From Tetradesmus obliquus (Eukaryota > Chlorophyta > Chlorophyceae > Sphaeropleales > Scenedesmaceae), in the NCBI GenBank assembly GCA_030272155.1, contig CP126200.1, positions 4,278,001 to 4,342,000 on the forward strand: a stretch of DNA of 64,000 bases, given 5' to 3'. The notes under the pieces are model-generated. The model had not been told where the DNA came from. It saw only the letters and a list, made by a program, of their open reading frames with translations, and ran no database searches. Position 1 is the stretch's first letter. Every line of letters begins with the position of its first letter. This document shows positions 1 to 50,479 of the stretch, piece after piece. Made by a program: the position numbers and the translations under genes.

Positions 1-507
1 CAGCACAACAGGCAGCAGCACCAGCCAGGGCAGCTGTATGGCTTGCCTATTGAATCTTGGGTGCTGCCAGAGCAAAGCAGTACAGGACATGCACCTGGCC
101 TGCATGCAGGCAGTACAATTACAGGCAGCAGCCTCAGGCTTGATCCCCCCAGGACACCAGATGTAACAGCGCGCCAGTATGACAGAAGCCGAAGCAGTCA
201 CTACTGCAGCAGCGCTGGCATGGTGCGGCCAGCATCTGCGCCAGGCGTGCAGCGCGGCACAGCAGTGTGGATGTACAGCACCAGCAGCAGCAGCAAAGGC
301 AGCCAGATTGCAGACCAGCGCAGCGTGGCTGGTCATGTAGGCATGTCTTCTGGAAGTCACGGCAGCTTGTGGTATGAAGTGGTGCGTGAATGCCAGGCTG
401 AGGTTCTAGAGCAGGCGGTGCTGCTGTCGCAGACTGCGAGCGTGCGTGCTGAGTCGCGTGTGATGGCAGCTGCACTGCGCAGCAGCTGGGACCTGCTGCA
501 TGGCTGA
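1..507 (+). CDS. Gln-rich repeat-unit protein, C-terminal part of the left-most copy (partial)
   Basis: This is the 3' end of the first array copy, cut by the window edge. The reading frame is open from base 1 (CAG CAC AAC AGG) to the TGA at 505-507, and encodes the same C-terminus as the two complete copies. It includes one RPASAP motif and a final, less repetitive segment ending WDLLHG. Nothing distinguishes it from the corresponding parts of copies two and three. The upstream part, and whether this copy has a native 5' end, cannot be seen. Function unknown. Confidence 0.75.
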   Translation, partial: QHNRQQHQPGQLYGLPIESWVLPEQSSTGHAPGLHAGSTITGSSLRLDPPRTPDVTARQYDRSRSSHYCSSAGMVRPASAPGVQRGTAVWMYSTSSSSKGSQIADQRSVAGHVGMSSGSHGSLWYEVVRECQAEVLEQAVLLSQTASVRAESRVMAAALRSSWDLLHG

Positions 508-1165
508 GGTTCCGATCAGCTGTCAGTAGTAGATCCTTATGGTACAATTGATTTTTTTGCCAGATACTATGTGGCGTGTGGTGTGCAGTGCTGCATACTA
601 ATGCCTGGTTGTCACGAGCTGTGTCTGGCCTTGTCCCACAGACATCGGCATTGTGTTACCGGGAATCCTGCTTGTTATGCTGTTGCCGCATTGCAACAAA
701 CAACACGTTTGAGCATAGCGCTGGTAACATCCCGTTGCACTTCAATCTAACAAGCGTCGAGACTCTATTGATTACTGGGAAACCTGTGACATCGTGCTGT
801 GATGCAACTGAGTGCACGTCAGCAGCCAGGATATGGCTGACCAGCAAGTGCCTCCATAGGCCCGCTGATCCATTGGTTTGCAGCAGGGGTTGCTGTACTG
901 TCACTGCTGCCAGCTGCGCTCAACACCCGAGAAAATGTGACTATACAGCTCTGCAGGCCATGCCCTATTGTGCGGCACCGCAAGCCAACACCAGCTGGTC
1001 TGAACTAATAGCAGTGGCAGTAGCCCAACGGCAGTGGCCCAACACTGTGGCCCAAACAGGGATCAGAAAACAGTGGCCTGCAAGGAAAGCCTGTCACTCT
1101 TTGACTGCTGTGAACAACAGCTCTAGTGGAGTATTTGAAGTTGCCAGACCTCAAACAGCAGTGGA

Positions 1166-1507
1166 TCAGTGCGCTGTAGGCAACTTCGGCGGCATAGACT
1201 GTCTACGCTGCCGCTGCTGCTGCCCGGCCGCTGCTGCCCCACTCCCTGCTTCACCTGCAGGCTGCTTACTGCTAGTACTGCTGTTGCCAGTTACTGCCCT
1301 GCCACTTGCAAAGCGTGGGGAGGCGCCAAAGCCTCTGCTGCTGCTGCTGCTGCTGCTGCTTGCAGCCATTCCACGCTGCTGCCCAGGAGCTGCCAGTGCG
1401 CTCTTCGGTGGGCTAGGGACCTTGGCCGTGCCCTGCATACATTTGAAACGCAGCACCGTCCATCGTCGACGGCTTGTTTCAACGCATACATGCCATTTGA
1501 ACTGTGC
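1166..1507 (-). pseudogene. Orphan terminal exon of the IQ-motif gene, array copy 1
   Basis: Identical to the final exon (15239-15580) of the IQ-motif coiled-coil gene: the acceptor TACTACAG, then a 113-codon frame starting AQFKWHVCVE and ending LPTAH plus stop. In this unit the sequence upstream on the minus strand is antisense of the Gln-rich gene instead of the preceding IQ exons. The exon is therefore cut off from its gene by the array junction. Read straight through, the minus frame stays open from 2020 and makes an accidental 284-codon fusion frame. Confidence 0.7.
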
Positions 1508-2375
1508 CTGTAGTACCGCAACCAGCAGATGTTGCTGCCACAACAGGGCAGGTGCCAGAGACGCCAGCAGCATTCTCATGCAAGCAGCAGCAGGCAGCAC
1601 CATGGGTAGCAGATAGGCCAATGCGGGGCAGGCAGGTACTGCAGCCGGCAAATGAGCAAGTGCATCTGCAGCTGCAGCAAGGGCAGATTGATGCGGTGGA
1701 TCCATACAGCGAGCACCAGCAGATGTTGCTGCCACAACAGGGCAGGCAACAGCAGCAGCAGCTGCAAGAGAATTTTGAGCAGCAACGCAGACGCAGTAGC
1801 CAGCAGCAGCAGCAGCAGCCTCTGGTTGATGTTCTGCAGCAGGCCGCCAACAGCCCCGTTGCTGCCAGCCATGCACTGCTGTCTGCGCTGAACCCTCTGG
1901 AGTTTGTGCTGTGGCAGCAGCGGCAGCACCAGCGCACCTTGCTGGACAGGGCTTTGCATGCACTGACCAGCCTGCAGGCAGATGTGGACAATCTGCTTGC
2001 TGCAAGCACCAACCGCACACAGCCGGTGCAGCAGGTGGCGGCAGCAGCGCTCAGTGAGGCAGCCCAAGCCACGCTTGCTGGTGATCAGCAGGTGCTGATA
2101 GCAGATGACGCAGCACAACAGCAACAGCAGGGCTGGAGCATCAAGGCCGGCAGGTCGGATGAAGGCGGCCCTGCAACTCAGCAGCAGCAGCAGCAGCAGC
2201 AGGAGCAGGGCAGTCCCAGCACGACAGCAGCAGCGAGTGGCAGCAGCGACCTGGCTGCCTTTGAGCAGGAGCTGCTGCAGTGTGAGGCTGCTGCCCCTGG
2301 GCGGCGGCTGTCAGCAGAGACGATGCGGCAGTACTACACCGCACACGGCCTCTCCGAGGACGGCAAGCCGGCAGA

Positions 2376-2406
<31 letters not shown>

Positions 2407-2511
2407 AGGGTGGGAGATGTGCGGTATACAGATGATGGGGTGGGCAGCTTGGGCGGGCTAGGGCAGTCGGAGCAGGACGCTTCACAGCTGCCGAATGCGG
2501 TGCACATAACA

Positions 2512-2551
<40 letters not shown>

Positions 2552-3063
2552 CAGAGGCCGATGTGGATGACTTTGAGGCGCAGCTGCTGGCGCTGGAAGC
2601 GGCACAGCCTGGGCGGAGGCTGTCGGCAGATGAAGAGCAGCAGGCAGCCTGGCAGGAAGCTAGCGCAGGAGCATCCAGTGCAGAGCTTGCTGCTGATCTC
2701 CAGCAGCAGCAGCAGCAGCAGCAGGGTGATGGTGAGCTGGACAGTTTTGAGGCGGAGCTACTTGCTGCTGAGGCTGGAGAGCCGGGCAGGAGGCTGTCTG
2801 AGGAAGCTGCTGCTGCAGCTGCTGCTGCTGCTGCTGCTGACGTGGCATGGGCCCAAGCAGAGCCACAGCAGCATGCAGGTGTCACACTGGCAGCAGCGAC
2901 AAGGCATGGCGCAGGTGTGGCGAAAAGGGAGTCGACAGAACAGGTCAGCAGCAGCAGCACAGCACCAGCTGCAGATGCTGTTGCCGCACAGCGACCGCGC
3001 CTGTTGAAGTTCCAACTGCCAGGAGATGAGTGTGCGCCTGCCAGCAGTGGAGGAGGAGCAGCC

Positions 3064-3099
<36 letters not shown>

Positions 3100-6000
3100 A
3101 ATGGCCCGGCTATTGCCAGTGCTGCTGCACAGCAGCAGAATGAGCAGCAGCAGGAGCTAGGTGGCGAGGGAAAACAGGACGATGCAGCAGCAGCAGCAGC
3201 AGGTGGTGCAGATGAGGTTGATGAGTTTGAGGCGCAGCTGTTGAAGCTGGAGGCAGATGCAGCCGCAGCAGCTGGGATTGCGCTGCCGCTGCGTACTGCT
3301 GGCAGTGGCAGCAGCAGCTTCTGCAGCAGTGCCCAGGAGGCAGCAGCGCCAGCAATGAACATGCCTTCAAAGGCAGTGGCAGTCGCAGCAGCTGCTGGTT
3401 GCTTTGCTGCTGCCACCACTGACCAGGGGGATGCATTGCGGGAGCGTTCAAGCATTAGCGTCAGCAGCAGTGTTGATGACGGCAGCGATGACTTTGAGGC
3501 GATGATGCGAGCCAATGAAACAGCAGCACGGCAGGCAGCTGGGCATGGGGCAGCAGCCAATACTGAAGACAGGTGGTGGGAGGACAGCGCTCCAGACAAG
3601 GAGCAGCAGGATCAGCAGCAGCAGGGCACGCATTCACCAGCAGAGCAGCAGCAGCAGCTGCAGCAGGAGCAGCAGCAGGGTGACGCAGCTGCGCTGCATG
3701 GTGTGGTGGCACAGCAAGCTGCAGCTGCAGCTCTGCAGCAGGCTGTGTTGCCTGCCAAGCTGCTGCAGCACGTGATGCCAGCAGCGGAGGTCGCCCAGCA
3801 GCCGAATCCTGCAGGCGCTGCTGCTGTTGAAGGCCTCTCTCTCGCTGACAGCAATATTAGCAGCATCAGCATATGCAGCAGCCACCCTGAAGTAGTGTTG
3901 GAGTTTGGCAGGGTGGGCAGCATAGGCGATGATGCTGCAGGCCTTCCACTGTCACCTCGCACAGCTGCTAAGACAGGCATACAGGAGTTTGCCTGGATGG
4001 CTGCACAGACACACCAAGAGCAGCAAGACGAGCAGCAGGTGTGTCAGCAGCAGGAGGGGCGTCAGCAGCAGGTGGCACAGTTACTGCTGCCTTTAGCTGC
4101 AGAAGTGGCCAGCAGTCCTTCAGACAATGCAGAGCAGCAGCAGCAGCAGCAGCAGCAGCAACCAGTGCAAACATTGGCAGCAGCAGAGCAAGCAACTGCG
4201 GCGGAGTTGCAGGCACATCAGCTGCAGCCTGGTGAATACGATTTGGATGCTGCAGATGTGGTTGCTGCAGAGAGCATGCAATGCAATCGTGCTGGTAGCA
4301 GCGGCAGCCCTGGGGTTGCAGCAACAGCAGCAGCAGTGGTGGCAGCACCTGCCTCAGTAGACAGCACTGCCAAGCTCGCTGCTGTTGCACAGAGTGCTGC
4401 ACTACAAGAGGAGCTAGTTGATGATAGCAGCAGCAGCAGCATTGCCGAAGGGGCACCAAAGGTGCAGGTGCCTCAACAACAGCGGGCCCAGCCGCAGCAG
4501 CAGCAGCAAGGTGACCAAGTGCCAGAAGCACAGGGCAGCAGCGGCCCACAGTTGCAGGGAAATGCAGGCTTGCTGCTGCCAACAGCTGATGATGCTGGCA
4601 GCGAGGCAGTGACACCCAGGCTGCAGTGTGACCCGCCCCCGCAAGCTGCATTGGAAACAAGAGAAGCAGCAGCAGTAGAGGAGCAAGAGCTAGGTTGGCT
4701 GCAGCAGATGCAGGCCCTGCAGTTGCTGCAGCCCGATGAGACAGCCATGCAGCACCACGGGCAGGTTGCACCACCGCCAACAATAGGCGGCAAGCCTCAG
4801 TCCCCACAGGAGCAGCTGTGCATGGCCCAGAAACAACAACAGCAGCAGCAGCAGCAGCAGCAGCAAATACAGTCAAGCTCTGGAGCAGCACCGTCCTGCA
4901 GTACCGCTGAGCAGCAGGCTGCAGCAGGTCAGCCATTCAGCACAGTGGAAACAGCAGCAACAGAAACAGCAACAGCAGCAGCAGCAGTAGCAGGTGTTGC
5001 GAGCATCCCTGCTGTTGGCAGCAGAAGAAGGAGCGGCACTGGTAGCAACAGCAGCAGCAACAGCAGCAGGAGGAGCATCGGCACTGCAGCACCACTTGCA
5101 TCACCTCCACCAGGCAGCATGCAGGCTACAAGCAGTGCCACTCTGCAGCAGCAGCAGCAGCAGCAGCAGCAGGTGCAACAACAGCGTGTGTCAGCAGAGC
5201 AGCACATTAGTAGCAGCTGCCCAGGAAGCAGTGCATCTGCTGCCCACACAACACCGCTACCAGCAGCAGCAGCAGCAGCAGCATTGGGTGTGTCGGGCAC
5301 AACTCACCAAGACCCTGGCAACAGAACAGTTGGCAAGCAGCAGGGCAGCAGCAACAGCAGCTGCAGCAGCATGACTGTGCCAGTGCAGCCATGTGCAGCG
5401 CAGCTGGCAGGCGAGCTTGCAGCAAACTTGCATGACCAAGTCGGTGTGGACCTTGGCCGCCTTAACACAAACCTTTCGCTGGCAGAGAGCAGCTTCCTAA
5501 GCCTGCCTGGAGAGAGCCCGAGCATGTACGCTGCTGCTGGTGCTGGTGGAGTTGATGCTGAGGCCGCTTATCCAGCTCGCGTGTCAGCAATTGAGACAGC
5601 AGTGCATGTGGCAGTTGGCCAGGCTAGCAGTGTGATGCGTAGAGTGGCAGTTGCTGAGGCAGCTGCTGAGACTGCAGCTGCAGCAACAGAGTGTAGTCCG
5701 TGTGGGTCTGGTGCGCACCAGCATGCAGCGTCACGGCACTGTCAAACTGCAGCAGCTGATGAGGCATATGTACCAGGTGGTGGTGATGCAGCAACCTGCA
5801 GCAGCGCCCAGCACAGTGCGGCGGCAAGCAGCAAATGCTGCTGCGCTGGGAGCTGCTGCAGGCGTTGCCGTGAAAGCGCGCATTGTCAGCTTGCACAGAA
5901 CAGGAAGCTCATGCAGAACAGCAGCAGCGGATGCGGGTTGCAGCAGGGGACAGGCGCAGATGCATCAGCGCACCGCAGTGCTGCCGCTGCTCCTACCCCA

Positions 6001-6453
6001 GCTGGCCACAGAGGTATGCAGCTGCATGCCTTCAGCAGCATGGGGGCAGAAAGCAGCAGCAGTAGCATTGCAAGCACGACAAGCATCACCAGCAGCAGCA
6101 GCAGTGCCGTGTCTCTGGATGTGCAGCGCTTGCTGTGCCACCAGCAGCCATGTCCTGCACCCCGTGCATTGAATGAGCAGTTTGTACAGCAGTATCACAG
6201 CAAGGCCCCCACATCACCGCGCAAGCCGCACAGCAGCAGCAGCAGCAGCAGCAGCAAGCCAAGTGCTCACAGGCTTGTGAAGCAGCTGGCAGGTATTGAC
6301 AGCAAGTTGCAGCAGCTGGAGGCCCTGGTGCAGCAGGATGTGCAGGGTGAGCTGGACCTGCAGGCTGCGCTGCAGCGGCAGCAGCAGCAGCGCCGGCACC
6401 AACACCAGCAGGAGCTGCGGCTGCGGCAGGAACTGCAGGAGAGCAGCAGCCAG

Positions 6454-6514
<61 letters not shown>

Positions 6515-7542
6515 GGCAGCAGCAGCGGCAGTGGCAGCCCTGGGAGTGTGACGGTGCAGCTGAAGCGGACAGCGTCAACCTGGGCTGCACTGACACTCAT
6601 CCGCTCCCAAGAGCTGGGCGAGTTGACCTTGCAGAGCACATGCTGCGTCCAGCATCAGCGCCATGCTGCAGCCACTCCAGGGCCTATGTGCAGCGCCAGC
6701 AGCACCCAGCGAGTAGGTTTGCTGGATGTGGCAGCTGCACAGGTGCACACTTGGACACATATGGCAGCAGCCACTCTGCTGTGCATGGTTTCTGCAACTG
6801 TTCAGATGCAGCCGGGCGTTGTGCAGCAGGCACTAGAGTAGAGGCCAGGCCTTGGAGCAGTGGGCGCTTGCATGGCGGCTACCACAGCCGCAGCAGCAGC
6901 ACCTTCCTGGGGAACTACCCTGCTGCTGCACACATTAGTCCTTATCACGATGTTGGAGCTCATCAGCCAGTGCCAACAGAACACAGTGGCAGTGGCGGCA
7001 GCAGCAGTGCTTGCATAAGCAGCAGGGCATTTGAGCAGCACAACAGGCAGCAGCACCAGCCAGGGCAGCTGTATGGCTTGCCTATTGAATCTTGGGTGCT
7101 GCCAGAGCAAAGCAGTACAGGACATGCACCTGGCCTGCATGCAGGCAGTACAATTACAGGCAGCAGCCTCAGGCTTGATCCCCCCAGGACACCAGATGTA
7201 ACAGCGCGCCAGTATGACAGAAGCCGAAGCAGTCACTACTGCAGCAGCGCTGGCATGGTGCGGCCAGCATCTGCGCCAGGCGTGCAGCGCGGCACAGCAG
7301 TGTGGATGTACAGCACCAGCAGCAGCAGCAAAGGCAGCCAGATTGCAGACCAGCGCAGCGTGGCTGGTCATGTAGGCATGTCTTCTGGAAGTCACGGCAG
7401 CTTGTGGTATGAAGTGGTGCGTGAATGCCAGGCTGAGGTTCTAGAGCAGGCGGTGCTGCTGTCGCAGACTGCGAGCGTGCGTGCTGAGTCGCGTGTGATG
7501 GCAGCTGCACTGCGCAGCAGCTGGGACCTGCTGCATGGCTGA
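1504..7542 (+). CDS. Gln/Ala/Ser-rich low-complexity protein with five FE..LL modules, array copy 1
   Basis: A single open frame of 2,012 codons; I do not recognise the family. The frame opens at a GTG (1504) and the array junction lies at 1524/1525, so the first ~20 bases are antisense to an exon boundary of the neighbouring gene. The first in-frame ATG is at 1621. The native 5' end is therefore probably missing, or lies in an upstream exon outside this unit. Visible parts in order: five modules of the type DDFEAQLLALEA (starting near 2248, 2566, 2739, 3216 and 3484), three of which continue PGRRLS; long poly-Gln, poly-Ala and poly-Ser runs, the longest being 19 CAG codons at 6457-6513; a Cys cluster (CCCAGSCCRRC, ~5834-5866); a coiled-coil-like stretch (~6270-6450); and two RPASAP motifs (~6642, ~7258). 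It could be a scaffold or transcription-related protein, but that is speculation. The antisense frames show the same low complexity. Confidence 0.7.
1521..1746 (+). repeat. 32-bp direct repeat beside the array junction
   Basis: A 32-base sequence beginning ACCAGCAGATGTTGCTG occurs at 1521-1552 and again at 1715-1746; both are also present in the next unit, 7,035 bases on. The first occurrence spans the unit junction (1524/1525). The second lies in the Gln-rich gene, in a different reading frame, where it encodes HQQMLLPQQGR. The right-hand flank at 15597 shares only its first four bases. Confidence 0.8.
6457..6513 (+). repeat. Coding (CAG)19 tract
   Basis: Nineteen uninterrupted CAG codons encode poly-Gln within the coiled-coil-like C-terminal third of the Gln-rich protein. 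The tract is repeated in the next unit. It is the longest of many CAG runs in the frame. Other runs (the Gln run near 2515-2550, the Ala run near 3067-3099, the Ser run near 6234-6257) differ in length by one codon between units, so these microsatellites are the fastest-changing part of the unit. Confidence 0.9.
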
Positions 7543-8200
7543 GGTTCCGATCAGCTGTCAGTAGTAGATCCTTATGGTACAATTGATTTTTTTGCCAGAT
7601 ACTATGTGGCGTGTGGTGTGCAGTGCTGCATACTAATGCCTGGTTGTCACGAGCTGTGTCTGGCCTTGTCCCACAGACATCGGCATTGTGTTACCGGGAA
7701 TCCTGCTTGTTATGCTGTTGCCGCATTGCAACAAACAACACGTTTGAGCATAGCGCTGGTAACATCCCGTTGCACTTCAATCTAACAAGCGTCGAGACTC
7801 TATTGATTACTGGGAAACCTGTGACATCGTGCTGTGATGCAACTGAGTGCACGTCAGCAGCCAGGATATGGCTGACCAGCAAGTGCCTCCATAGGCCCGC
7901 TGATCCATTGGTTTGCAGCAGGGGTTGCTGTACTGTCACTGCTGCCAGCTGCGCTCAACACCCGAGAAAATGTGACTATACAGCTCTGCAGGCCATGCCC
8001 TATTGTGCGGCACCGCAAGCCAACACCAGCTGGTCTGAACTAATAGCAGTGGCAGTAGCCCAACGGCAGTGGCCCAACACTGTGGCCCAAACAGGGATCA
8101 GAAAACAGTGGCCTGCAAGGAAAGCCTGTCACTCTTTGACTGCTGTGAACAACAGCTCTAGTGGAGTATTTGAAGTTGCCAGACCTCAAACAGCAGTGGA

Positions 8201-8542
8201 TCAGTGCGCTGTAGGCAACTTCGGCGGCATAGACTGTCTACGCTGCCGCTGCTGCTGCCCGGCCGCTGCTGCCCCACTCCCTGCTTCACCTGCAGGCTGC
8301 TTACTGCTAGTACTGCTGTTGCCAGTTACTGCCCTGCCACTTGCAAAGCGTGGGGAGGCGCCAAAGCCTCTGCTGCTGCTGCTGCTGCTGCTGCTTGCAG
8401 CCATTCCACGCTGCTGCCCAGGAGCTGCCAGTGCGCTCTTCGGTGGGCTAGGGACCTTGGCCGTGCCCTGCATACATTTGAAACGCAGCACCGTCCATCG
8501 TCGACGGCTTGTTTCAACGCATACATGCCATTTGAACTGTGC
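8201..8542 (-). pseudogene. Orphan terminal exon of the IQ-motif gene, array copy 2
   Basis: Second detached copy of the IQ gene's last exon, the same sequence as at 1166-1507 and 15239-15580. Only the right-most copy is next to the rest of the gene. It is still a perfect match, so it was copied with the unit and has not diverged. It could act only as a 3' UTR or antisense element for the Gln-rich gene in the unit to its left. Confidence 0.7.
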
Positions 8543-9410
8543 CTGTAGTACCGCAACCAGCAGATGTTGCTGCCACAACAGGGCAGGTGCCAGAGACGCC
8601 AGCAGCATTCTCATGCAAGCAGCAGCAGGCAGCACCATGGGTAGCAGATAGGCCAATGCGGGGCAGGCAGGTACTGCAGCCGGCAAATGAGCAAGTGCAT
8701 CTGCAGCTGCAGCAAGGGCAGATTGATGCGGTGGATCCATACAGCGAGCACCAGCAGATGTTGCTGCCACAACAGGGCAGGCAACAGCAGCAGCAGCTGC
8801 AAGAGAATTTTGAGCAGCAACGCAGACGCAGTAGCCAGCAGCAGCAGCAGCAGCCTCTGGTTGATGTTCTGCAGCAGGCCGCCAACAGCCCCGTTGCTGC
8901 CAGCCATGCACTGCTGTCTGCGCTGAACCCTCTGGAGTTTGTGCTGTGGCAGCAGCGGCAGCACCAGCGCACCTTGCTGGACAGGGCTTTGCATGCACTG
9001 ACCAGCCTGCAGGCAGATGTGGACAATCTGCTTGCTGCAAGCACCAACCGCACACAGCCGGTGCAGCAGGTGGCGGCAGCAGCGCTCAGTGAGGCAGCCC
9101 AAGCCACGCTTGCTGGTGATCAGCAGGTGCTGATAGCAGATGACGCAGCACAACAGCAACAGCAGGGCTGGAGCATCAAGGCCGGCAGGTCGGATGAAGG
9201 CGGCCCTGCAACTCAGCAGCAGCAGCAGCAGCAGCAGGAGCAGGGCAGTCCCAGCACGACAGCAGCAGCGAGTGGCAGCAGCGACCTGGCTGCCTTTGAG
9301 CAGGAGCTGCTGCAGTGTGAGGCTGCTGCCCCTGGGCGGCGGCTGTCAGCAGAGACGATGCGGCAGTACTACACCGCACACGGCCTCTCCGAGGACGGCA
9401 AGCCGGCAGA

Positions 9411-9441
<31 letters not shown>

Positions 9442-9546
9442 AGGGTGGGAGATGTGCGGTATACAGATGATGGGGTGGGCAGCTTGGGCGGGCTAGGGCA
9501 GTCGGAGCAGGACGCTTCACAGCTGCCGAATGCGGTGCACATAACA

Positions 9547-9589
<43 letters not shown>

Positions 9590-10101
9590 CAGAGGCCGAT
9601 GTGGATGACTTTGAGGCGCAGCTGCTGGCGCTGGAAGCGGCACAGCCTGGGCGGAGGCTGTCGGCAGATGAAGAGCAGCAGGCAGCCTGGCAGGAAGCTA
9701 GCGCAGGAGCATCCAGTGCAGAGCTTGCTGCTGATCTCCAGCAGCAGCAGCAGCAGCAGCAGGGTGATGGTGAGCTGGACAGTTTTGAGGCGGAGCTACT
9801 TGCTGCTGAGGCTGGAGAGCCGGGCAGGAGGCTGTCAGAGGAAGCTGCTGCTGCAGCTGCTGCTGCTGCTGCTGCTGACGTGGCATGGGCCCAAGCAGAG
9901 CCACAGCAGCATGCAGGTGTCACACTGGCAGCAGCGACAAGGCATGGCGCAGGTGTGGCGAAAAGGGAGTCGACAGAACAGGTCAGCAGCAGCAGCACAG
10001 CACCAGCTGCAGATGCTGTTGCCGCACAGCGACCGCGCCTGGTGAAGTTCCAACTGCCAGGAGATGAGTGTGCGCCTGCCAGCAGTGGAGGAGGAGCAGC
10101 C

Positions 10102-10140
<39 letters not shown>

Positions 10141-13100
10141 AATGGCCCGGCTATTGCCAGTGCTGCTGCACAGCAGCAGAATGAGCAGCAGCAGGAGCTA
10201 GGTGGCGAGGGAAAACAGGACGATGCAGCAGCAGCAGCAGCAGGTGGTGCAGATGAGGTTGATGAGTTTGAGGCGCAGCTGTTGAAGCTGGAGGCAGATG
10301 CAGCCGCAGCAGCTGGGATTGCGCTGCCGCTGCGTACTGCTGGCAGTGGCAGCAGCAGCTTCTGCAGCAGTGCCCAGGAGGCAGCAGCGCCAGCAATGAA
10401 CATGCCTTCAAAGGCAGTGGCAGTCGCAGCAGCTGCTGGTTGCTTTGCTGCTGCCACCACTGACCAGGGGGATGCATTGCGGGAGCGTTCAAGCATTAGC
10501 GTCAGCAGCAGTGTTGATGACGGCAGCGATGACTTTGAGGCGATGATGCGAGCCAATGAAACAGCAGCACGGCAGGCAGCTGGGCATGGGGCAGCAGCCA
10601 ATACTGAAGACAGGTGGTGGGAGGACAGCGCTCCAGACAAGGAGCAGCAGGATCAGCAGCAGCAGGGCACGCATTCACCAGCAGAGCAGCAGCAGCAGCT
10701 GCAGCAGGAGCAGCAGCAGGGTGACGCAGCTGCGCTGCATGGTGTGGTGGCACAGCAAGCTGCAGCTGCAGCTCTGCAGCAGGCTGTGTTGCCTGCCAAG
10801 CTGCTGCAGCACGTGATGCCAGCAGCGGAGGTCGCCCAGCAGCCGAATCCTGCAGGCGCTGCTGCTGTTGAAGGCCTCTCTCTCGCTGACAGCAATATTA
10901 GCAGCATCAGCATATGCAGCAGCCACCCTGAAGTAGTGTTGGAGTTTGGCAGGGTGGGCAGCATAGGCGATGATGCTGCAGGCCTTCCACTGTCACCTCG
11001 CACAGCTGCTAAGACAGGCATACAGGAGTTTGCCTGGATGGCTGCACAGACACACCAAGAGCAGCAAGACGAGCAGCAGGTGTGTCAGCAGCAGGAGGGG
11101 CGTCAGCAGCAGGTGGCACAGTTACTGCTGCCTTTAGCTGCAGAAGTGGCCAGCAGTCCTTCAGACAATGCAGAGCAGCAGCAGCAGCAGCAGCAGCAGC
11201 AACCAGTGCAAACATTGGCAGCAGCAGAGCAAGCAACTGCGGCGGAGTTGCAGGCACATCAGCTGCAGCCTGGTGAATACGATTTGGATGCTGCAGATGT
11301 GGTTGCTGCAGAGAGCATGCAATGCAATCGTGCTGGTAGCAGCGGCAGCCCTGGGGTTGCAGCAACAGCAGCAGCAGTGGTGGCAGCACCTGCCTCAGTA
11401 GACAGCACTGCCAAGCTCGCTGCTGTTGCACAGAGTGCTGCACTACAAGAGGAGCTAGTTGATGATAGCAGCAGCAGCAGCATTGCCGAAGGGGCACCAA
11501 AGGTGCAGGTGCCTCAACAACAGCGGGCCCAGCCGCAGCAGCAGCAGCAAGGTGACCAAGTGCCAGAAGCACAGGGCAGCAGCGGCCCACAGTTGCAGGG
11601 AAATGCAGGCTTGCTGCTGCCAACAGCTGATGATGCTGGCAGCGAGGCAGTGACACCCAGGCTGCAGTGTGACCCGCCCCCGCAAGCTGCATTGGAAACA
11701 AGAGAAGCAGCAGCAGTAGAGGAGCAAGAGCTAGGTTGGCTGCAGCAGATGCAGGCCCTGCAGTTGCTGCAGCCCGATGAGACAGCCATGCAGCACCACG
11801 GGCAGGTTGCACCACCGCCAACAATAGGCGGCAAGCCTCAGTCCCCACAGGAGCAGCTGTGCATGGCCCAGAAACAACAACAGCAGCAGCAGCAGCAGCA
11901 GCAGCAAATACAGTCAAGCTCTGGAGCAGCACCGTCCTGCAGTACCGCTGAGCAGCAGGCTGCAGCAGGTCAGCCATTCAGCACAGTGGAAACAGCAGCA
12001 ACAGAAACAGCAACAGCAGCAGCAGCAGTAGCAGGTGTTGCGAGCATCCCTGCTGTTGGCAGCAGAAGAAGGAGCGGCACTGGTAGCAACAGCAGCAGCA
12101 ACAGCAGCAGGAGGAGCATCGGCACTGCAGCACCACTTGCATCACCTCCACCAGGCAGCATGCAGGCTACAAGCAGTGCCACTCTGCAGCAGCAGCAGCA
12201 GCAGCAGCAGCAGGTGCAACAACAGCGTGTGTCAGCAGAGCAGCACATTAGTAGCAGCTGCCCAGGAAGCAGTGCATCTGCTGCCCACACAACACCGCTA
12301 CCAGCAGCAGCAGCAGCAGCAGCATTGGGTGTGTCGGGCACAACTCACCAAGACCCTGGCAACAGAACAGTTGGCAAGCAGCAGGGCAGCAGCAACAGCA
12401 GCTGCAGCAGCATGACTGTGCCAGTGCAGCCATGTGCAGCGCAGCTGGCAGGCGAGCTTGCAGCAAACTTGCATGACCAAGTCGGTGTGGACCTTGGCCG
12501 CCTTAACACAAACCTTTCGCTGGCAGAGAGCAGCTTCCTAAGCCTGCCTGGAGAGAGCCCGAGCATGTACGCTGCTGCTGGTGCTGGTGGAGTTGATGCT
12601 GAGGCCGCTTATCCAGCTCGCGTGTCAGCAATTGAGACAGCAGTGCATGTGGCAGTTGGCCAGGCTAGCAGTGTGATGCGTAGAGTGGCAGTTGCTGAGG
12701 CAGCTGCTGAGACTGCAGCTGCAGCAACAGAGTGTAGTCCGTGTGGGTCTGGTGCGCACCAGCATGCAGCGTCACGGCACTGTCAAACTGCAGCAGCTGA
12801 TGAGGCATATGTACCAGGTGGTGGTGATGCAGCAACCTGCAGCAGCGCCCAGCACAGTGCGGCGGCAAGCAGCAAATGCTGCTGCGCTGGGAGCTGCTGC
12901 AGGCGTTGCCGTGAAAGCGCGCATTGTCAGCTTGCACAGAACAGGAAGCTCATGCAGAACAGCAGCAGCGGATGCGGGTTGCAGCAGGGGACAGGCGCAG
13001 ATGCATCAGCGCACCGCAGTGCTGCCGCTGCTCCTACCCCAGCTGGCCACAGAGGTATGCAGCTGCATGCCTTCAGCAGCATGGGGGCAGAAAGCAGCAG

Positions 13101-13491
13101 CAGTAGCATTGCAAGCACGACAAGCATCACCAGCAGCAGCAGCAGTGCCGTGTCTCTGGATGTGCAGCGCTTGCTGTGCCACCAGCAGCCATGTCCTGCA
13201 CCCCGTGCATTGAATGAGCAGTTTGTACAGCAGTATCACAGCAAGGCCCCCACATCACCGCGCAAGCCGCACAGCAGCAGCAGCAGCAGCAGCAAGCCAA
13301 GTGCTCACAGGCTTGTGAAGCAGCTGGCAGGTATTGACAGCAAGTTGCAGCAGCTGGAGGCCCTGGTGCAGCAGGATGTGCAGGGTGAGCTGGACCTGCA
13401 GGCTGCGCTGCAGCGGCAGCAGCAGCAGCGCCGGCACCAACACCAGCAGGAGCTGCGGCTGCGGCAGGAACTGCAGGAGAGCAGCAGCCAG

Positions 13492-13552
<61 letters not shown>

Positions 13553-14580
13553 GGCAGCAGCAGCGGCAGTGGCAGCCCTGGGAGTGTGACGGTGCAGCTG
13601 AAGCGGACAGCGTCAACCTGGGCTGCACTGACACTCATCCGCTCCCAAGAGCTGGGCGAGTTGACCTTGCAGAGCACATGCTGCGTCCAGCATCAGCGCC
13701 ATGCTGCAGCCACTCCAGGGCCTATGTGCAGCGCCAGCAGCACCCAGCGAGTAGGTTTGCTGGATGTGGCAGCTGCACAGGTGCACACTTGGACACATAT
13801 GGCAGCAGCCACTCTGCTGTGCATGGTTTCTGCAACTGTTCAGATGCAGCCGGGCGTTGTGCAGCAGGCACTAGAGTAGAGGCCAGGCCTTGGAGCAGTG
13901 GGCGCTTGCATGGCGGCTACCACAGCCGCAGCAGCAGCACCTTCCTGGGGAACTACCCTGCTGCTGCACACATTAGTCCTTATCACGATGTTGGAGCTCA
14001 TCAGCCAGTGCCAACAGAACACAGTGGCAGTGGCGGCAGCAGCAGTGCTTGCATAAGCAGCAGGGCATTTGAGCAGCACAACAGGCAGCAGCACCAGCCA
14101 GGGCAGCTGTATGGCTTGCCTATTGAATCTTGGGTGCTGCCAGAGCAAAGCAGTACAGGACATGCACCTGGCCTGCATGCAGGCAGTACAATTACAGGCA
14201 GCAGCCTCAGGCTTGATCCCCCCAGGACACCAGATGTAACAGCGCGCCAGTATGACAGAAGCCGAAGCAGTCACTACTGCAGCAGCGCTGGCATGGTGCG
14301 GCCAGCATCTGCGCCAGGCGTGCAGCGCGGCACAGCAGTGTGGATGTACAGCACCAGCAGCAGCAGCAAAGGCAGCCAGATTGCAGACCAGCGCAGCGTG
14401 GCTGGTCATGTAGGCATGTCTTCTGGAAGTCACGGCAGCTTGTGGTATGAAGTGGTGCGTGAATGCCAGGCTGAGGTTCTAGAGCAGGCGGTGCTGCTGT
14501 CGCAGACTGCGAGCGTGCGTGCTGAGTCGCGTGTGATGGCAGCTGCACTGCGCAGCAGCTGGGACCTGCTGCATGGCTGA
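8539..14580 (+). CDS. Gln/Ala/Ser-rich low-complexity protein with five FE..LL modules, array copy 2
   Basis: Second complete copy, 2,013 codons. It differs from the first copy by one extra Gln codon near 9549-9590, one extra Ala codon near 10102-10140, one fewer Ser codon near 13273-13297, Leu to Val at 10042 and a silent change at 9837. The frame again opens at a GTG next to the repeat junction (8559/8560), with the first in-frame ATG at 8656. Both copies remain open over more than 6 kb, so neither shows decay. That fits a duplication too young for mutations to accumulate, or an assembly duplicate. Confidence 0.7.
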
Positions 14581-15238
14581 GGTTCCGATCAGCTGTCAGT
14601 AGTAGATCCTTATGGTACAATTGATTTTTTTGCCAGATACTATGTGGCGTGTGGTGTGCAGTGCTGCATACTAATGCCTGGTTGTCACGAGCTGTGTCTG
14701 GCCTTGTCCCACAGACATCGGCATTGTGTTACCGGGAATCCTGCTTGTTATGCTGTTGCCGCATTGCAACAAACAACACGTTTGAGCATAGCGCTGGTAA
14801 CATCCCGTTGCACTTCAATCTAACAAGCGTCGAGACTCTATTGATTACTGGGAAACCTGTGACATCGTGCTGTGATGCAACTGAGTGCACGTCAGCAGCC
14901 AGGATATGGCTGACCAGCAAGTGCCTCCATAGGCCCGCTGATCCATTGGTTTGCAGCAGGGGTTGCTGTACTGTCACTGCTGCCAGCTGCGCTCAACACC
15001 CGAGAAAATGTGACTATACAGCTCTGCAGGCCATGCCCTATTGTGCGGCACCGCAAGCCAACACCAGCTGGTCTGAACTAATAGCAGTGGCAGTAGCCCA
15101 ACGGCAGTGGCCCAACACTGTGGCCCAAACAGGGATCAGAAAACAGTGGCCTGCAAGGAAAGCCTGTCACTCTTTGACTGCTGTGAACAACAGCTCTAGT
15201 GGAGTATTTGAAGTTGCCAGACCTCAAACAGCAGTGGA

Positions 15239-16019
15239 TCAGTGCGCTGTAGGCAACTTCGGCGGCATAGACTGTCTACGCTGCCGCTGCTGCTGCCCGG
15301 CCGCTGCTGCCCCACTCCCTGCTTCACCTGCAGGCTGCTTACTGCTAGTACTGCTGTTGCCAGTTACTGCCCTGCCACTTGCAAAGCGTGGGGAGGCGCC
15401 AAAGCCTCTGCTGCTGCTGCTGCTGCTGCTGCTTGCAGCCATTCCACGCTGCTGCCCAGGAGCTGCCAGTGCGCTCTTCGGTGGGCTAGGGACCTTGGCC
15501 GTGCCCTGCATACATTTGAAACGCAGCACCGTCCATCGTCGACGGCTTGTTTCAACGCATACATGCCATTTGAACTGTGCCTGTAGTACCGCAACCACAG
15601 TGCGGCACATATGAAGCAGCATGGCGCAGTAGCAGTGGTCAGGTTACCAGCACACAGTACACACGGGCTGTCATCGCTGCATGGCAATACACGCAGCCGT
15701 GCGGTAGCCGCCAGCAGCCGCACTCACCCGTTTGCCTGCCGCTGCCAGCAAGCTGTCAGTGCGCCTGTGCTTTGTGGCCGCCGCCACTGCACCTGCAGCA
15801 GCTGCAGCGCTGCCATCGGCCTGCTCTGCTGCCTCAGCAGCAACTGGTAGTGCTGGCAGCTCCATAGGCAAGCCCCCAAAAGTGCTACTGCTCACCAATC
15901 CGGCTGGGCTGGGCAGCCGTGACCCCTTCCTGCCATTGCTGCCTGCGCTGCCGCTACCGCGCACAGCCCCGCTGCTGCCATAGCTGGGCAGCATGCTGGC
16001 AGACAAGCTGCTGTAGCCT

Positions 16020-16060
<41 letters not shown>

Positions 16061-18653
16061 CTGTAAAATGGCGTGCAGTCGTCTGCGCTCCAGCATCCCC
16101 CTCGCCCCTGCCTGCAGAGCGTGCAGCATGGCAGCGGCAGCAGCCAGCGGGAAGTTTACAAACATTTCTGCTCTCACCATCTGGGAGGCAGCTTGCAGTC
16201 TTATCGGGTGGCCTGCAGCGGGATGAGCTGTGTCTGTTCGGCGTCAGACGTTCTGGCTGCAACATTAGTACTGGTGCATTGACGCCATGTGCAGTGTGCG
16301 CGCAGTTCGACTGTATGTCATTGCCTGTATCACATTGCCAAAGCCTACATTTGCACCGCAAATTGGCACCCACCTGGATCAGTACTGCAGCCTGCTCCTC
16401 CCTCTCACGCTGCTGCTGCAGCTGCTTGCGTGTGAGGTGGCCACGTGCAGCTGCCTGCAGCACCACTGCTGCCTCTTCCATGCTGGGCCGGCAGTCATTG
16501 CTGCCGCAGCCAGCTGCTGCAGAAATGCATGCCGCTGAGGGGCTGCAGCTGGGTTGACCTGCACGTGCCTGCAGCACCAGCGATGTGAAACAGGTTTCAC
16601 CTACTGTCTTTGCTCTTTCATTTTCAAATCATAGAGCTTGCGTCTTGTATAGGCACGCCGACCTGAAGCTACCCAACCTACTCTGACACAACATAACTGC
16701 GTAAAGGTGGGGTGCGATGCAGTGGTACATGGCTTGCCATGTTGTGCTGCTGGTCAGATGCAACTGTCTCTCCGCACTCACCACACAATGTGCAGCAAGT
16801 ATCAAGTTGCCAAGCACTGACCCAACGCTGCCACAAGCCTCACCTGCAGGCACTGCGGCTGCTCCTCTCCACCTGCACTTCTGCTGCTGCTGCTGCTGCT
16901 GTCAGGGTCGTGCAGGATGCACAGCATGAGGTGCACATGTGCATCCTCTATCTGCTTGTGCCGAGCAGCCTCTGCTGCAACTGCCTCTGCCACACGCGCG
17001 TTTACGCCAGCAACTGCCTTGGCTGCCGATGCCTTCACTTCTTCCATTTTCCGCTGAGATTGCTTCGCAGCCAGTGCACTGGCGCGCGCCTCCTTGTCCT
17101 TTGCTTCCAACTGCTGCTGCAGCTGTTCCAGCTGCTGCTGTAGCTGCTGCCGCTCACGCGCTGCTGCTGCCATTGCCTGCTTGTGTGTGCGTGCATCTGT
17201 CTCCAGCTTGAGCTGCAGCACCTGGTGCGCGTGCTGCAGCTTCTGTAGACAGCAATGAGACAAGTGTCAACAAAGGGCATCAATGCAGCGGCACATTCAG
17301 ACAACCCGATCAACTGCTGCTGCTGATTAATGTTTGAACATGCGTGTTGCGCTTCTACCCAGTGTAGCATGTGCTTCTCATGGACTCTAATGCATCTGCA
17401 CGAGTCTAGGTGACGCCCAACACGCTGCATGACACTGAGCTCATGATGCCTGCTGCAGGACACATACCACCATTACAGCAACAGCATAGCCACACTGCTG
17501 CTGAGCCATGCTTATCAGCGCTCAGCATACCCTCAACAAAAGCAGCTGCCACCGCCCAGCTTTAGGCCCACCTCAAGCGCCTTGGCCGTCGCCTCTGCCT
17601 GCTGCCGCAGCTGCTGCTCTGCTGCTGCCGCTTCAGGCGAGCTGGTACCATCTGACAACTGCTCTTTCAGCTTGCGCACAGCTTCGTTCAAGGTCTGCAC
17701 CTTCTGTTCCTGCTTTTCAGCCTGCCGCTCTGCATCCCGTGCTCGCTGTTTGTGTCGCCTAACCTGCTCCTTGAGCACCTGCAGTTGCAACAGAAAAGCA
17801 TGGCTATGCAGTAAGTAGGTACGCAGGAAGCAGCAAGTGTTATGCCATGGCGTGCACCTCATGTGCTGACCAACTTGTGTTCATGGTATAAATCGAGTGA
17901 CCAAAACCTGGAAGAGAAGCAGCAAGCATGCGGGGCTGCCATTGCTACCCAACACAGTAGCCACTGGGTCAACATCAACAGACTGTGCTAGCAACACATG
18001 TCAGCTGCAAGCATATGGACAAGCGTGTTCTGTATAAGAGTCACCTTGTTATCTTCAAACAAAGCGCGGAGTTTGGGTGGCAAGTCTGCTAATTCTGATG
18101 CCTGGAAGTGCTGCACCAGGGCCTGTGCCGCGCCTGCCTGCCTCTCTGGTGCACGCAGCTCGCGCTTCAGTTCCTGCAAAGGTATAAGTTGCGTAGCTGT
18201 GATGGCACTGCAATGGTGCTGCTGGATGGTTGAGCCAATGAACTCCACTGGGCCCCACTGCATATGCACCCGTCCTGCAAGCACATGTTGCTTTGGCTGC
18301 TGAAAAACAGGTGCCCACAACCACGTGCAGGCATTTACTGTAGTTTGGTCAGCTGACATGATGCAGTTGTAGCTCGTGCCTACCTCCTTTTCACCCCTCA
18401 GCTTGCGCACTTCCTCCTCATGCTCTACTGCTGCCTGCTGTAGTGTGGACACGTACTCCTGCAACTGCGCAGAAGACAACAGCATGCCATGTCAGCGCTT
18501 GCCTGCAGAGCCCTACCATCACGTACATGAGGTCTGCCTCACCTCATGCAGCAGACCCAGTGAGCGAACTGCAGCCATGTGGCTGCTTTTGCCTCCTCCT
18601 GCATTCTGCTGCTGTCCCAGGCTGGCCTTCGAGTCTACCGTGCTCAGCTCCAT
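15239..18653 (-). CDS. IQ-motif coiled-coil protein (8 exons)
   Basis: Exons, from the start: 18653-18543, 18464-18384, 18173-18045, 17778-17572, 17242-16844, 16568-16374, 16111-15728, 15580-15239. All junctions are phase 0 GT-AG, and the product is 615 aa. Residues ~38-270 are charged heptad-like helix (for example QVRRHKQRARDAERQAEKQ), so a long coiled coil. Two IQ motifs follow: AAVVLQAAARGHLTRKQL (~342-359) and AAVLIQ/AGARGMLERRRLHA (~369-388). The second is rebuilt exactly across an intron, which supports the model. IQ motifs bind calmodulin or EF-hand light chains, so a Ca-responsive cytoskeletal or scaffold role is likely but inferred. The C-terminus has 12 Gln codons and low-complexity Ser/Ala. 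I chose ATG 18653 because the frame is closed by a TAA just upstream. The last exon lies inside the tandem array. Confidence 0.8.
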
Positions 18654-18678
18654 GTGCAGCTGCTCCGCCACTTACAAT

Positions 18679-18702
18679 TCAGCCTACTTGCTGTTTCCGC
18701 AT
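18679..18702 (-). other. Upstream ORF in the IQ-gene 5' leader
   Basis: An eight-codon frame, ATG CGG AAA CAG CAA GTA GGC TGA, ends 25 bases before the proposed start of the IQ-motif gene. If the leader is transcribed through here, it could lower initiation at the main ATG. No transcript data are available, so this is only a positional observation. Confidence 0.35.
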
Positions 18703-19447
18703 TATTCAGCACGAAAGATGGCGATTCCGTTCGCGCCCAGAGTTCGCGAGGGAAATCCAATGCTGCTGCATTACACGTTGAGCAGTGCTGAATTAGGTGT
18801 TTGAACGGAACAAGACATAATTGCTTATTCCAGGCGAAGAGTCTTGATTGCCAGGATTTCAGGGTCCCTGAAGTGTTCGCGGGCTGACACTGTCAGATAC
18901 GCAACAGCAACTCGTCCACCTTTTGAGTGCAATTTGAAGTCCTGCAGGAAACACACAGTGCAATGGTTGATTTGGCTATCACAGCCTCAGTGAGTCAGCG
19001 CCCAGGAACACAGGCCAAGTGAACTGGGAGGACACCTGCCAGACGTTGCATATCATCACCATGGCCTGAGGCCCACAGATCAATGCCCTCCCACCAAAAA
19101 CAAGCTTCTGCACTTGCTGGCGCATACACCAGAGTAACAATAACCCTGTTGAAACCTACGCAAGTGCCAGTGCTTCCTTGTGAACCACGAATTGTGTGTT
19201 ACACGACGGGAACCACCAAATGCTCAGGAAGCCATCAAGCTGTCCCTTTACAGGAAGCCCACACCGTTGTGCCCCATCTCAGTAAACAAACAAAGGGCAA
19301 GCATGCGAGGTGTAAGCATCCAACCAAAAAGCCCTGCAAGCTTCTTAGCACTCAGTGACCCGCAGATCACATCCCCAACACCAGCGGGCACTTGGTGTAC
19401 TTATGCATAAGCAAATGCCCAAACGACGCCAGCGGGATGGTGGCAGA
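18703..19447. other. Intergenic: IQ-gene promoter side and CLC 3' flank
   Basis: About 745 bases between two minus-strand genes. It must hold the promoter of the IQ gene and the 3' UTR of the CLC gene. I see no convincing coding frame. TTACA (TGTAA on the minus strand) occurs at 19248-19252 and again at about 19199, roughly 200-250 bases past the CLC stop, in a suitable place for algal polyadenylation. Confidence 0.5.
19248..19252 (-). terminator. Candidate TGTAA polyadenylation signal for the CLC gene
   Basis: TGTAA on the minus strand, about 195 bases downstream of the CLC stop codon. TGTAA is the usual poly(A) signal in chlorophycean algae. A second copy lies about 50 bases further on. 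Position and motif are the only evidence. Confidence 0.4.
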
Positions 19448-20012
19448 TCAAAGTGCTGCACTACTGGTGCCGCCAATTGGTTCAAAGTCATCCCAGCCGC
19501 TGCTATTGCTGCTATGGTGACTGGCTGCCAGCCTTGTCCCCATGTTGCCACTGCCAGTGCGGTGCGTCATGCTCGAGACACCTCTGAAGAGCGGTGTGCC
19601 ACCTAAGCTGCCTACACTGCTGCTGTCAGCTGCAATCTCTACAGGGGCAGATCCAGCCCCTGCTGCTGCTGCCGCTGCTGCTGCTGCACTCCTGGGAGTC
19701 AAGCCGCTTCCCTCACCCCTGCTGCATGCTAGCCTGCTGATTGCTGCTCCCTTGCTGCTGCTGCCGGGGCCCTGTCCTGTAGCGTTCCGCAATGCTGAGC
19801 TGGCTGCTGGGCTACTACTGCCTGCACCTGCCCCTGCAGCTGCTGCTCTGCTGGCAGCCCCTGGTGGTGCTGTAGCTGCTGAGCTAGGCGGGCTGTGCAG
19901 CACAGCAGACAGCGGCTGCAGCGAAATTGCTTCCTGCTGGTGCTGGTGCTGGTATGCGTCTACTGCCTCTTGCACAGTGCCTCTCAGGGCCGAGGCCAGC
20001 CCAGCAGCACCT

Positions 20013-20083
<71 letters not shown>

Positions 20084-23000
20084 GAACAGAACACCAACAT
20101 CAGCACAGGCAACGTGTACCACGCCTAATGACCTCCCTGCGCTCAATCGCTGCAGCTACAGAGCCACCACTACCAACTCCAGGGCACCAAGCAAGCCCTC
20201 GTCCAACCTGCTGTTTATCACTGTTGACAACAGTGGCGTCAACAACGGTTTGACCTCACACCCTGGTGGAATGATACATCAACACCAGTAACTTCAGCGC
20301 TAAACTCAGCCTCAGCAGGGTGCGGCACGTGATGACGCCCAGGTGATAAGATAACCATGACACATAATACAACACAAAAATCACCTCACCCGCGCCCAGC
20401 GTCAGCTGCTCCAGGCAGGTGGCCTCCAGGCTGCTGCCCAGCAGGTCGTGGCGCGTGATGACGCCCACCACGCTGCTGGCGCGAGGGATGACCGCCAGGT
20501 GGCGCAGCCCCAGGGACCGGAACAGCGTGTACACCTTGGCCAGGCTCGTGTCCTCCTGCAGGCGGCACAACACGTACACAATTGAAGCCAAACCCTCCAA
20601 GCCAGGACGCGTGATGCAGGAATAGCGTGTACACCTTGGCCAGGCTGGTGTCTTCCTGCAGGCGATTGCAGGTCAGTGCAGGCGGCACATGGAAGCAACG
20701 GAAGCTAAGTTCCTCACAGAGAAATCACAGTCACATGCATGCACGCAGGCTATTGATGCACCTCCCATCACCCTGCTACTGCTGCTGCTGCTTCCCCCAA
20801 CAACCCCACCAGCACCACCATCATCAACCAAGTAATCAAGCCCCCGCAATAACGCCATTGGCCCACCTGCACCACGTATTAGCTGGGGTTCACGTAGGGC
20901 CAGGAACATGGCCGCCTCCTGCTTGCTGAGCTGCAGGCTGCCGATGCCTGCTGCTACTGCCGCTGCTATTGCTCCCCCCCCACAACCCTACCTGCACCAC
21001 GTAGTGCACATCACCACGTGCACAGTGGACGCAGCGCTGCCCCGGCAACACCCGGCCTGCACCCCCCACCACCCTGCTACTGTTGCCGCTGCTGGAAAAC
21101 GACAAGAAGCCCTCATCCCTCACCTGCACCACGTAGTAGCTAGGGTTCACGTAGGGCCCCAAGTCCAGGAACATGGCCGCCTCCTGCTCGCTGAGCTGCA
21201 GGCTGCCAATGCCTGGCTGGGCCTCGCTGATGGGCCGCACAAAGTCCGACTGCTGGTAGCTGAACGCCACCCGGCCCGCTACCTGCGCAGCAGACACAGA
21301 TCGAGGGTATGCGATAGCAACAAAAGAGGTTGAGGCCACAGGATGCCGCGCCGCACAGAGTCCGACTGCTGGTAGCTGAATGCCACGCGGCCCGCCACCT
21401 GCGCAGCAGATGCAGATTGAGGGTATGCGCGGTAACAACAAAGAAGGCTGAAGCCTCAGGATGACGCGCCGCACAAAGTCCAATTGCTGGTAGCTAAAGG
21501 CCACGCGGCCCGCCACCTGCGCAGCAGCCAGGAGCAGGGACACGACAGTCCACAAACTGACAACATGTACAATACGGACAATCGAGGTGGAAGCCACATG
21601 ATCTGCACAGCAGGCCAGTGTACAAGCACCAAGATAGGAGGATGTAGAAAGCCACAGCACAGGCAGGTGCGGGTGTCTGACCGACTCCTGGGATGTAACT
21701 GGCAGCCAGCCTGCAGCAGTCTTCTGCATGCCCGTGAAACTTCAAGCGCCACTGCATGCAATCCCAGGAATGCACACACACGCACACAACAAACAACCGA
21801 ATAAAGCTAGCAGCAGCACCTGTGAGCCCCTGCACCCACCTCCGACACAAACGGCGTCGGCTGGAAGCAGCGCCGCGTGCGCAGCAGCACCACCAGCTGG
21901 CTACGCAGCACGATGCCCATGATGTGCTGCTCGCAATCCGCTGGCCCACTAATAACTGCAAAACCATTGTGTGCCGTGCTCCGCAGCACCTCCAAGATGC
22001 GGCCAACCCTCTCAACACGTGAAAAGGTGACAGCGGGCTGCCCTGCTGCTTCAACGGCTGTGATGTGGCGCATTAGGCTGTGGGGGTGGGGCTCCAGGTA
22101 CGGTAGCTGCTTCAGGTCGATCAGAGACTCATAGATGGGCTTCACACCAGTGCCATCGCCAACAGCCTGCGCAGCACCATACCATAAAACCACATTGTGA
22201 CATGCAGTGCTGGCGCTGTTTATGTAGGGGCCTGATGTATACTGCATGAGCATAGGTAACAGCAGTGCAATGTCACAGGGTGTGGTTGCATCCCGCTGCG
22301 CTGCTCATGCGTGCATCACCTGACAACGCCCAGAGCGCACAGCAGAGCCATGCGCGTACACACTGCCGGAAAACACTACAATACACCAGACATAGGATCA
22401 TTGCTGCTTGCCTTGAAAAGGCTTGGGTGTGCGTAATACTTGCAACCATACTGGAGCAGTGCTCTCTTCAGTTGCCGCTCCAGTGGGGCGCAGGGTCGTT
22501 GGCTTTGATGCTGTGGCTTGATGGGTAACACCATGTATACACCAGGCATGTCCTGTGCCACCCACCTTGGCCACCAGCGTCACCAGCATCATCATCGGCA
22601 GCAGCGCCAGGTTGCTGGTCAGCTCCAGCAGCATCACACACGTCGCCACAGTCATGCGCATGCAGCCGCCGAGAAAGCTCGCCGCTCCCAGCAGCGCATA
22701 CGTCCCTTCATCAATCGAGTGCGTGCCGGGGCGCATGTCTGCCACAAACACGCCCACCAGCCGCCCATATGCGGCCCCGCACAAGATGCTGGGCACAAAC
22801 AAGCCGGTTGGGATTGCCACGCCGTACGATACAACCGCCAGGAAGAAGAACATGACCACGAACGTGAGCAGTGTGCTGACGCCGTACTCGTTCTTCGTCT
22901 GGCTGCTGAACAAGTTGCGGATCGCGTCGTCCTGCGTGTTGAAGAAGATGGTCGCCAGGTCGTTGTACGCGGGCTGCGCGCCGTAGCAGTTGAAGGAGAC

Positions 23001-45014: not shown

Positions 45015-45160
45015 CTTGTTGTAAAATGACGAATTCTAGACAAAGCCAGGATGCCGAAGCATGCTGGTCATGCATAGCTGCGCACCTTCAAGCAATGCTG
45101 AGCCAGAAGACCCCCGCCAAAGTCTCCTGGCACTCCAAGTGGTGGGCTGCTCATGTAGGC
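45015..45160 (+). repeat. Dispersed repeat, copy B
   Basis: Contains the shared left part (TTGTAAAATGACGAATTCTA) and the core TGCATAGCTGCGCACCTTCA, then GCAATGCTG, AGAAGACCCCC and CTCCTGGCACTCCAAGTGG. It is most like copy C (50480-50600). Confidence 0.7.
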
Positions 45161-50379: not shown

Positions 50380-50479
50380 CTAAGTCAACAACAATCACTT
50401 GTGCAGGCGACCGCTTACCTGCAGTGGCATTGCAGGCCGCCAGGCTCTGACAGCCCACCATTAGCTTTTCCTGCATGTA

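Follow-up and report, generated by a model that had tools for sequence, protein, structure and literature searches.

The array question

At the left end of a 64,000-nucleotide stretch of the Tetradesmus obliquus genome (assembly GCA_030272155.1, contig CP126200.1, positions 4,278,001 to 4,342,000; hereafter the window) lies a near-identical tandem array whose units carry very long open reading frames (ORFs), which raises the question of whether a whole large gene was amplified here, whether only part of a gene was duplicated, or whether an assembler wrote out one locus more than once. The array runs from one into the other of two convergent genes that we modelled, gene A on the plus strand and gene B on the minus strand. 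We conclude, with a probability of roughly 0.85, that it is a real and young partial-gene tandem duplication in three copies, which would have arisen by an ordinary mechanism, an accident of repair or replication. Our confidence that the duplication is real is high, and our confidence that there are exactly three copies is moderate.

Layout of the array and comparison of its copies

Coordinates to the left of the window were counted backwards, with 0 for the base preceding window base 1. We examined 40 kb of left flank, and scans for self-matches and exact matches covered 314 contiguous kb holding the array. Three full tandem copies of about 7.0 kb each (U0, U1 and U2) were found to span -5561 to 15597, with unique sequence beginning at 15598:

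1 to 1524 (full copy -5561 to 1524): right-hand part of U0, where gene A exon 2 ends (stop at 505-507), with the shared 3' region, gene B's last exon on the minus strand (1432-1166) and a portion of that gene's last intron
1549 to 8559: copy U1, 7011 bp
8584 to 15597: copy U2, 7014 bp

Self-BLASTN of the window aligned 1-8563 with 7036-15600 at 99.86% identity and 1-1528 with 14074-15600 at 99.94%. In a base-by-base alignment of 1-7035 with 7036-14073 there were two substitutions (2799/9837, T-A, and 3004/10042, T-G) and three one-codon indels, which fell in CAG/CTG runs at 2514/9550, 3064/10103 and 6231/13271. These alignments confirmed what a preliminary description of the locus had reported, namely a near-identical repeat with two substitutions, three one-codon changes and a partial third start, which ends at 15597. 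That description had the array begin at position 1 with two complete units only; another copy lies directly left of the window, so that three complete copies run from -5561. The 5.6 kb of U0 outside the window were 97.2% identical to the array unit, gaps included. Recent expansion, which had also been proposed, agrees with the two substitutions that separate U1 from U2 over about 7.0 kb, and the proposed microsatellite slippage agrees with the trinucleotide runs: the unit has 13 that are seven or more repeats long, and 3 of these vary between U1 and U2.

The copies are direct and adjoining, have common end points, and are connected by a novel right-to-left junction that the outer ends lack, as in a tandem duplication. 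The array is not a chance arrangement, because a 45-bp junction sequence occurred exactly twice in the 314 kb (at 1516 and 8551) and the longest self-match other than the array was 1275 aligned bases at 79% identity, with the settings of that search. A DNA search of the whole genome (104,662,953 bases, 17 contigs) with the 3' 1465 bp of the unit gave full-length matches at three places, all in the array, and three other matches of 36 to 51 bp elsewhere, these counts being lower bounds.

A minisatellite-like region to the right of the window, at about 147400-148860 in window-relative coordinates, matched itself over as many as 1275 aligned bases (76-82% identity); in the 314 kb only the array gave longer self-matches.

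A templated insert at both internal junctions

The two places where one copy meets the next carry the same scar:

1525 to 1548, plus strand: first junction (U0/U1), a 24-bp insert equal to 1719-1742, between the microhomologies ACCA (1521-1524) and CAGG (1549-1552)
8560 to 8583, plus strand: second junction (U1/U2), with the identical 24-bp templated insert
1715 to 1746, plus strand: source of the insert, 32 bp comprising the insert and both microhomologies, in gene A exon 2; its 31-bp core is also at home in U0 (-5394) and U2 (8751)

Both junctions read ACCA, 24 bp, CAGG, and these 32 bp are an exact copy of the source, which lies 194 bp downstream in the same exon. The 31-bp core matched four times in the window (two per unit copy) and not at all in shuffled sequence; in the 314 kb it occurred five times, once in U0 at its home position and twice at each of U1 and U2. 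The outer left and right ends of the array occurred once each in the 314 kb, without the insert. An insert copied from nearby, with microhomology at both of its ends, is what characterizes template-switch or theta-type junctions. Going by known scars, from which we take the names of the mechanisms, two template switches in succession, each guided by microhomology, would be expected to leave such a trace, and so would theta-type joining with a templated insert.

We propose that the tandem duplication began as an accident of replication or repair in which gene B's last intron became attached to exon 2 of gene A, some 7 kb upstream. The joining may have proceeded by microhomology-mediated template switching (fork stalling and template switching/microhomology-mediated break-induced replication, FoSTeS/MMBIR) or by polymerase-theta-type end joining. 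Unequal exchange between the copies would later have produced three copies with one common junction. At a still later stage, U0 may have exchanged its left 3.2 kb with a diverged allele, or this part may have escaped conversion, or the assembly may have switched haplotype there. Judging from the anatomy described below, the outcome would be that U0 keeps gene A working, that the right end of the array feeds a working gene B, and that U1 and U2 are passengers.

Gene A and its truncated copies

Gene A was modelled with exon 1 running from an ATG at -7102 to -5840 and exon 2 from -5624, joined in phase with GT/AG signals to encode 2464 amino acids. The repeat unit starts 63 bp inside the modelled exon 2. 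Modelled exon 1, the intron and its acceptor lie only to the left of U0, and the acceptor 19-mer occurred once in the 314 kb. In the other two copies, the following ORFs remain:

1504 to 7542, plus strand: U1 ORF, 2012 amino acids from a GTG; gene A exon 2 minus its first 63 bp, with a first in-frame ATG at 1621 (1973 amino acids) and without exon 1, the native splice acceptor and the native upstream region
8539 to 14580, plus strand: U2 ORF, 2013 amino acids from a GTG; first in-frame ATG at 8656 (1974 amino acids), truncated as in U1

Both frames open at a GTG one codon past a stop, and upstream of each lies the 3' region of the preceding unit in place of gene A's own upstream region. The proposal that a whole large gene had been amplified does not fit this anatomy: with one border 63 bp inside the modelled exon 2 of gene A and the other in gene B's modelled last intron, the unit leaves U1 and U2 truncated. 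The open gene of more than 6 kb described earlier stands as far as the long open frames are concerned, which are real (1504-7542 and 8539-14580); they represent most of one exon, and the modelled gene to which it belongs starts at -7102, outside the unit. Whole-gene amplification as a dosage array would have given units with a promoter and a complete coding sequence; by the models, gene A exon 1 is present to the left of U0 only. Based on the models, U0 most likely represents the working gene A, with U1 and U2 as promoterless, 5'-truncated passengers, and both parent genes are most likely intact, one at each end of the array. Transcription of the truncated copies is possible.

Gene B and the right edge of the array

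Gene B is convergent with gene A, and the right edge of the array, 15597/15598, falls inside its modelled last intron:

15239 to 15505, minus strand: modelled last exon of gene B, the copy joined to the rest of the gene, with its stop at 15239; orphan copies start at 8467 and 1432
15506 to 15727, minus strand: modelled last intron of gene B, containing the right edge of the array
15728 to 16243, minus strand: open region of the penultimate exon of gene B, own acceptor unplaced, joining 15505 in phase 0

The donor of this last intron occurred once and its acceptor three times in the 314 kb. Each unit carries most of gene A exon 2 together with the last exon of gene B, and the body of gene B is found only at the right end.

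An IQ motif at about 16419-16475 on the minus strand is a candidate only for membership in gene B. Further along this strand from the IQ motif, the three minus frames of 14601-24502 gave a CLC channel match (E 5.3e-33) and a CBS match just below its cut-off; within the stretch of this minus-strand CLC channel gene, a 118-bp unit is repeated 2.5 times at 87% (21234-21527).

Copy U0 is a mosaic

Between 1549 and 4792, U0 differed from both U1 and U2 by 22 substitutions and at 10 indel places; between 4793 and 8559 there were no substitutions, and the differences lay in CAG runs, two of which differ from both copies (one by six units) and a third from U1 alone. In this comparison a difference at 1548, in the junction insert, was dropped, and positions 2799 and 3004, where U0 agrees with one copy, were not counted. 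Substitution divergence between U0 and U1 was 0.68% in the left 3.2 kb and then, abruptly after 4792, 0% in the right 3.8 kb. All 22 substitutions lay in the left 46% of the unit, with 25.5 expected on the right at the rate of the left part, and none of 200,000 random placements left as long an empty stretch. Because all substitutions lie within 1549-4792 and random placement produced no such empty stretch, U0 is a mosaic. This is most simply explained by exchange with a diverged allele or by the assembly switching haplotype, with gene conversion of the right half as the alternative. By hand arithmetic, the end point of any such exchange or conversion would probably be within about 450 bp to the right of 4792, if the density on the left (1 substitution per 147 bp) continued. 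Homogenisation, another early suggestion, or allelic exchange in its place, fits the left copy, U0, whose substitutions relative to both other copies all sit in the left 3.2 kb.

At the mutation rates given for Chlamydomonas incerta in the accessible part of PMC8383909 (median 7.6e-10, mean 11.56e-10), the age of the U1/U2 pair would be about 120,000-190,000 cell generations (95% range about 15,000-680,000 over both rates), a figure that borrows the rate of another genus and that assembly base errors would lower.

Coding signal in the modelled product

The modelled product of gene A is largely a low-complexity protein rich in glutamine, alanine and serine (A 17.9%, Q 14.9%, S 12.1%), and the first quarter of the U1 ORF contains three copies of a motif seen by eye, FExxLLxxEAxxPGRRLS. 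Neither the U1 ORF nor the ORF at 576-1616 matched a Pfam family at E up to 0.1, a search of solved structures with the U1 ORF gave nothing at E up to 0.01, and no plus-strand family was found in six raw frames of positions 1-4400 of the left-flank stretch L010, which includes gene A exon 1. As two random substitutions create a stop in about 8% of cases, and as trinucleotide slippage keeps the frame, the open frames of U1 and U2 are uninformative on function; that both copies are open, which had been called unusual, needs no special explanation at this stop rate. Selection on U1 and U2 was considered as a reading and rejected, two substitutions being too few. TGTAA is the algal poly(A) signal. 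It was not found on either strand in 7543-8560, from which we draw no conclusion on a terminator inside each unit.

Weighing the explanations

Several observations weigh against our reading or parts of it. The copy number of three is the number as assembled, and the models of genes A and B were built from open frames and splice signals. The coding signal of exon 2 is weak. Of the 22 changes in U0, 9 were synonymous, where about 26% would be expected in unconstrained sequence (P ~0.10); in each of the five remaining frames 5 to 7 changes were synonymous and 0 to 4 created stops, and one of these frames was stop-free as well. At most, this would be a weak sign of coding constraint. In addition, the right half of U0 has changed too, as its CAG runs differ from those of both copies in two cases and from U1 alone in the third; these differences therefore point to slippage after any exchange or conversion, or to an interrupted tract. 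We place low confidence in the order of the later events.

According to the accessible part of PMC12571836 (Table 1), the T. obliquus assembly GCA_030272155.1 comprises 104.70 Mb in 17 contigs at 56.5% GC. The available text of PMC12636532 credits Biondi et al. 2024 with describing a T. obliquus strain that is diploid and extensively heterozygous, a strain of the species is likewise called diploid in the portion available of PMC12899622, and the draft genome of strain DOE0152z is 208 Mb (PMC5552973). In part because of this last figure, we infer that assemblies of 104.7 and 100.3 Mb are the two haplotypes of a diploid strain. A further T. obliquus assembly, GCA_030272055.1, likewise in 17 contigs, would be the sister haplotype. 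A real duplication in two copies, U0 and one unit, might then have been assembled with the two haplotype versions of the second unit laid in series. Just five small changes separate U1 from U2, much like alleles, the species has a reported diploid strain, and U0 shows a haplotype-like switch in mid-copy; but the genome of this strain is titled gapless, telomere-to-telomere and phased in the part of its report available, and we regard the two-copy explanation as rather improbable. Far less credible still is a single-copy locus turned into an array purely by assembly. Although the near identity of U1 and U2 is what such an error would yield, the 24-bp insert with its microhomologies is missing from both outer ends, so that the assembler would have had to make it up, and U0 differs from U1 and U2 by 22 substitutions. 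As an assembler has no reason to create a templated insert of this kind, mere assembly error is very unlikely. The insert and 4-bp microhomologies at both junctions speak against the early suggestion that an assembler had duplicated one locus, as far as the duplication itself is concerned; that suggestion keeps some weight for the exact copy number.

An older duplication might also have been homogenised by gene conversion (concerted evolution) while selection kept the extra copies open. The drop from 0.68% to 0% divergence between U0 and U1 is as expected from a conversion tract, and the indels in multiples of three, together with the absence of stops among the 22 changes, could be taken as signs of selection. 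However, even in the absence of selection the 22 changes would include no stop with a probability of 0.36, the indels represent trinucleotide slippage, which preserves the frame by itself, and both U1 and U2 are missing gene A's exon 1 and upstream region, so we consider this explanation unlikely. About as doubtful is a more far-reaching idea, that the two haplotypes of one clonal diploid alga differ in copy number at the array, and that U0 would mark where a mitotic crossover or conversion ended, just to the right of 4792. The locus would then be a natural reporter for allelic recombination and array expansion, and the truncated copies might be transcribed as new, shorter proteins. We therefore retain the young three-copy partial-gene duplication as the explanation of the array.

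Other features nearby

Two directly repeated, dispersed copies of a sequence of about 118 bp, possibly a repetitive element, lie at 45020-45136 and 50476-50592; they are 83% identical and 5.5 kb apart. In the left flank, at about 1-2140 of L010, the minus strand, divergent to gene A, has frames with coiled-coil-like peptides and a weak TSNAXIP1_N match (E 0.00048, 20.9 bits against a cut-off of 27).

Significance and comparison with known systems

A locus that looks like an amplified giant gene can turn out to be a duplication of part of a gene, its anatomy hidden by the edge of the window. Two of the three gene A copies could be annotated as full genes on ORF length, leading to misleading gene counts. 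In the junction scar, a green alga provides a clear natural case of templated joining; U0, the left copy, half of which has diverged, bears on haplotype exchange in diploid algae.

The kind of event is already known. Copy-number junctions formed by FoSTeS/MMBIR carry short microhomology at consecutive template switches, and the array is alike in having short microhomology at two consecutive switches in the same orientation; sequence alone cannot separate this route from theta-type joining. Partial-gene tandem duplications in Drosophila yakuba, in the accessible part of PMC5460883, form chimeric structures and shuffle regulatory elements, and here too gene pieces lie beside foreign upstream sequence. 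Compared with those described there, the array is known from DNA, has both parent genes intact at its ends according to the models, and is present in three copies. In the part available of a study of Caenorhabditis elegans helq-1 and polymerase-theta end joining (PMC8654963), templated insertions are found at deletion junctions; another difference is that the array has three copies. The same text describes tandem duplications of about 100 bp to 10 kb, a range that includes the kilobase scale of the array, and, separately, short inserts copied from beside the junctions, which resemble the 24-bp insert at both internal junctions of the T. obliquus array.

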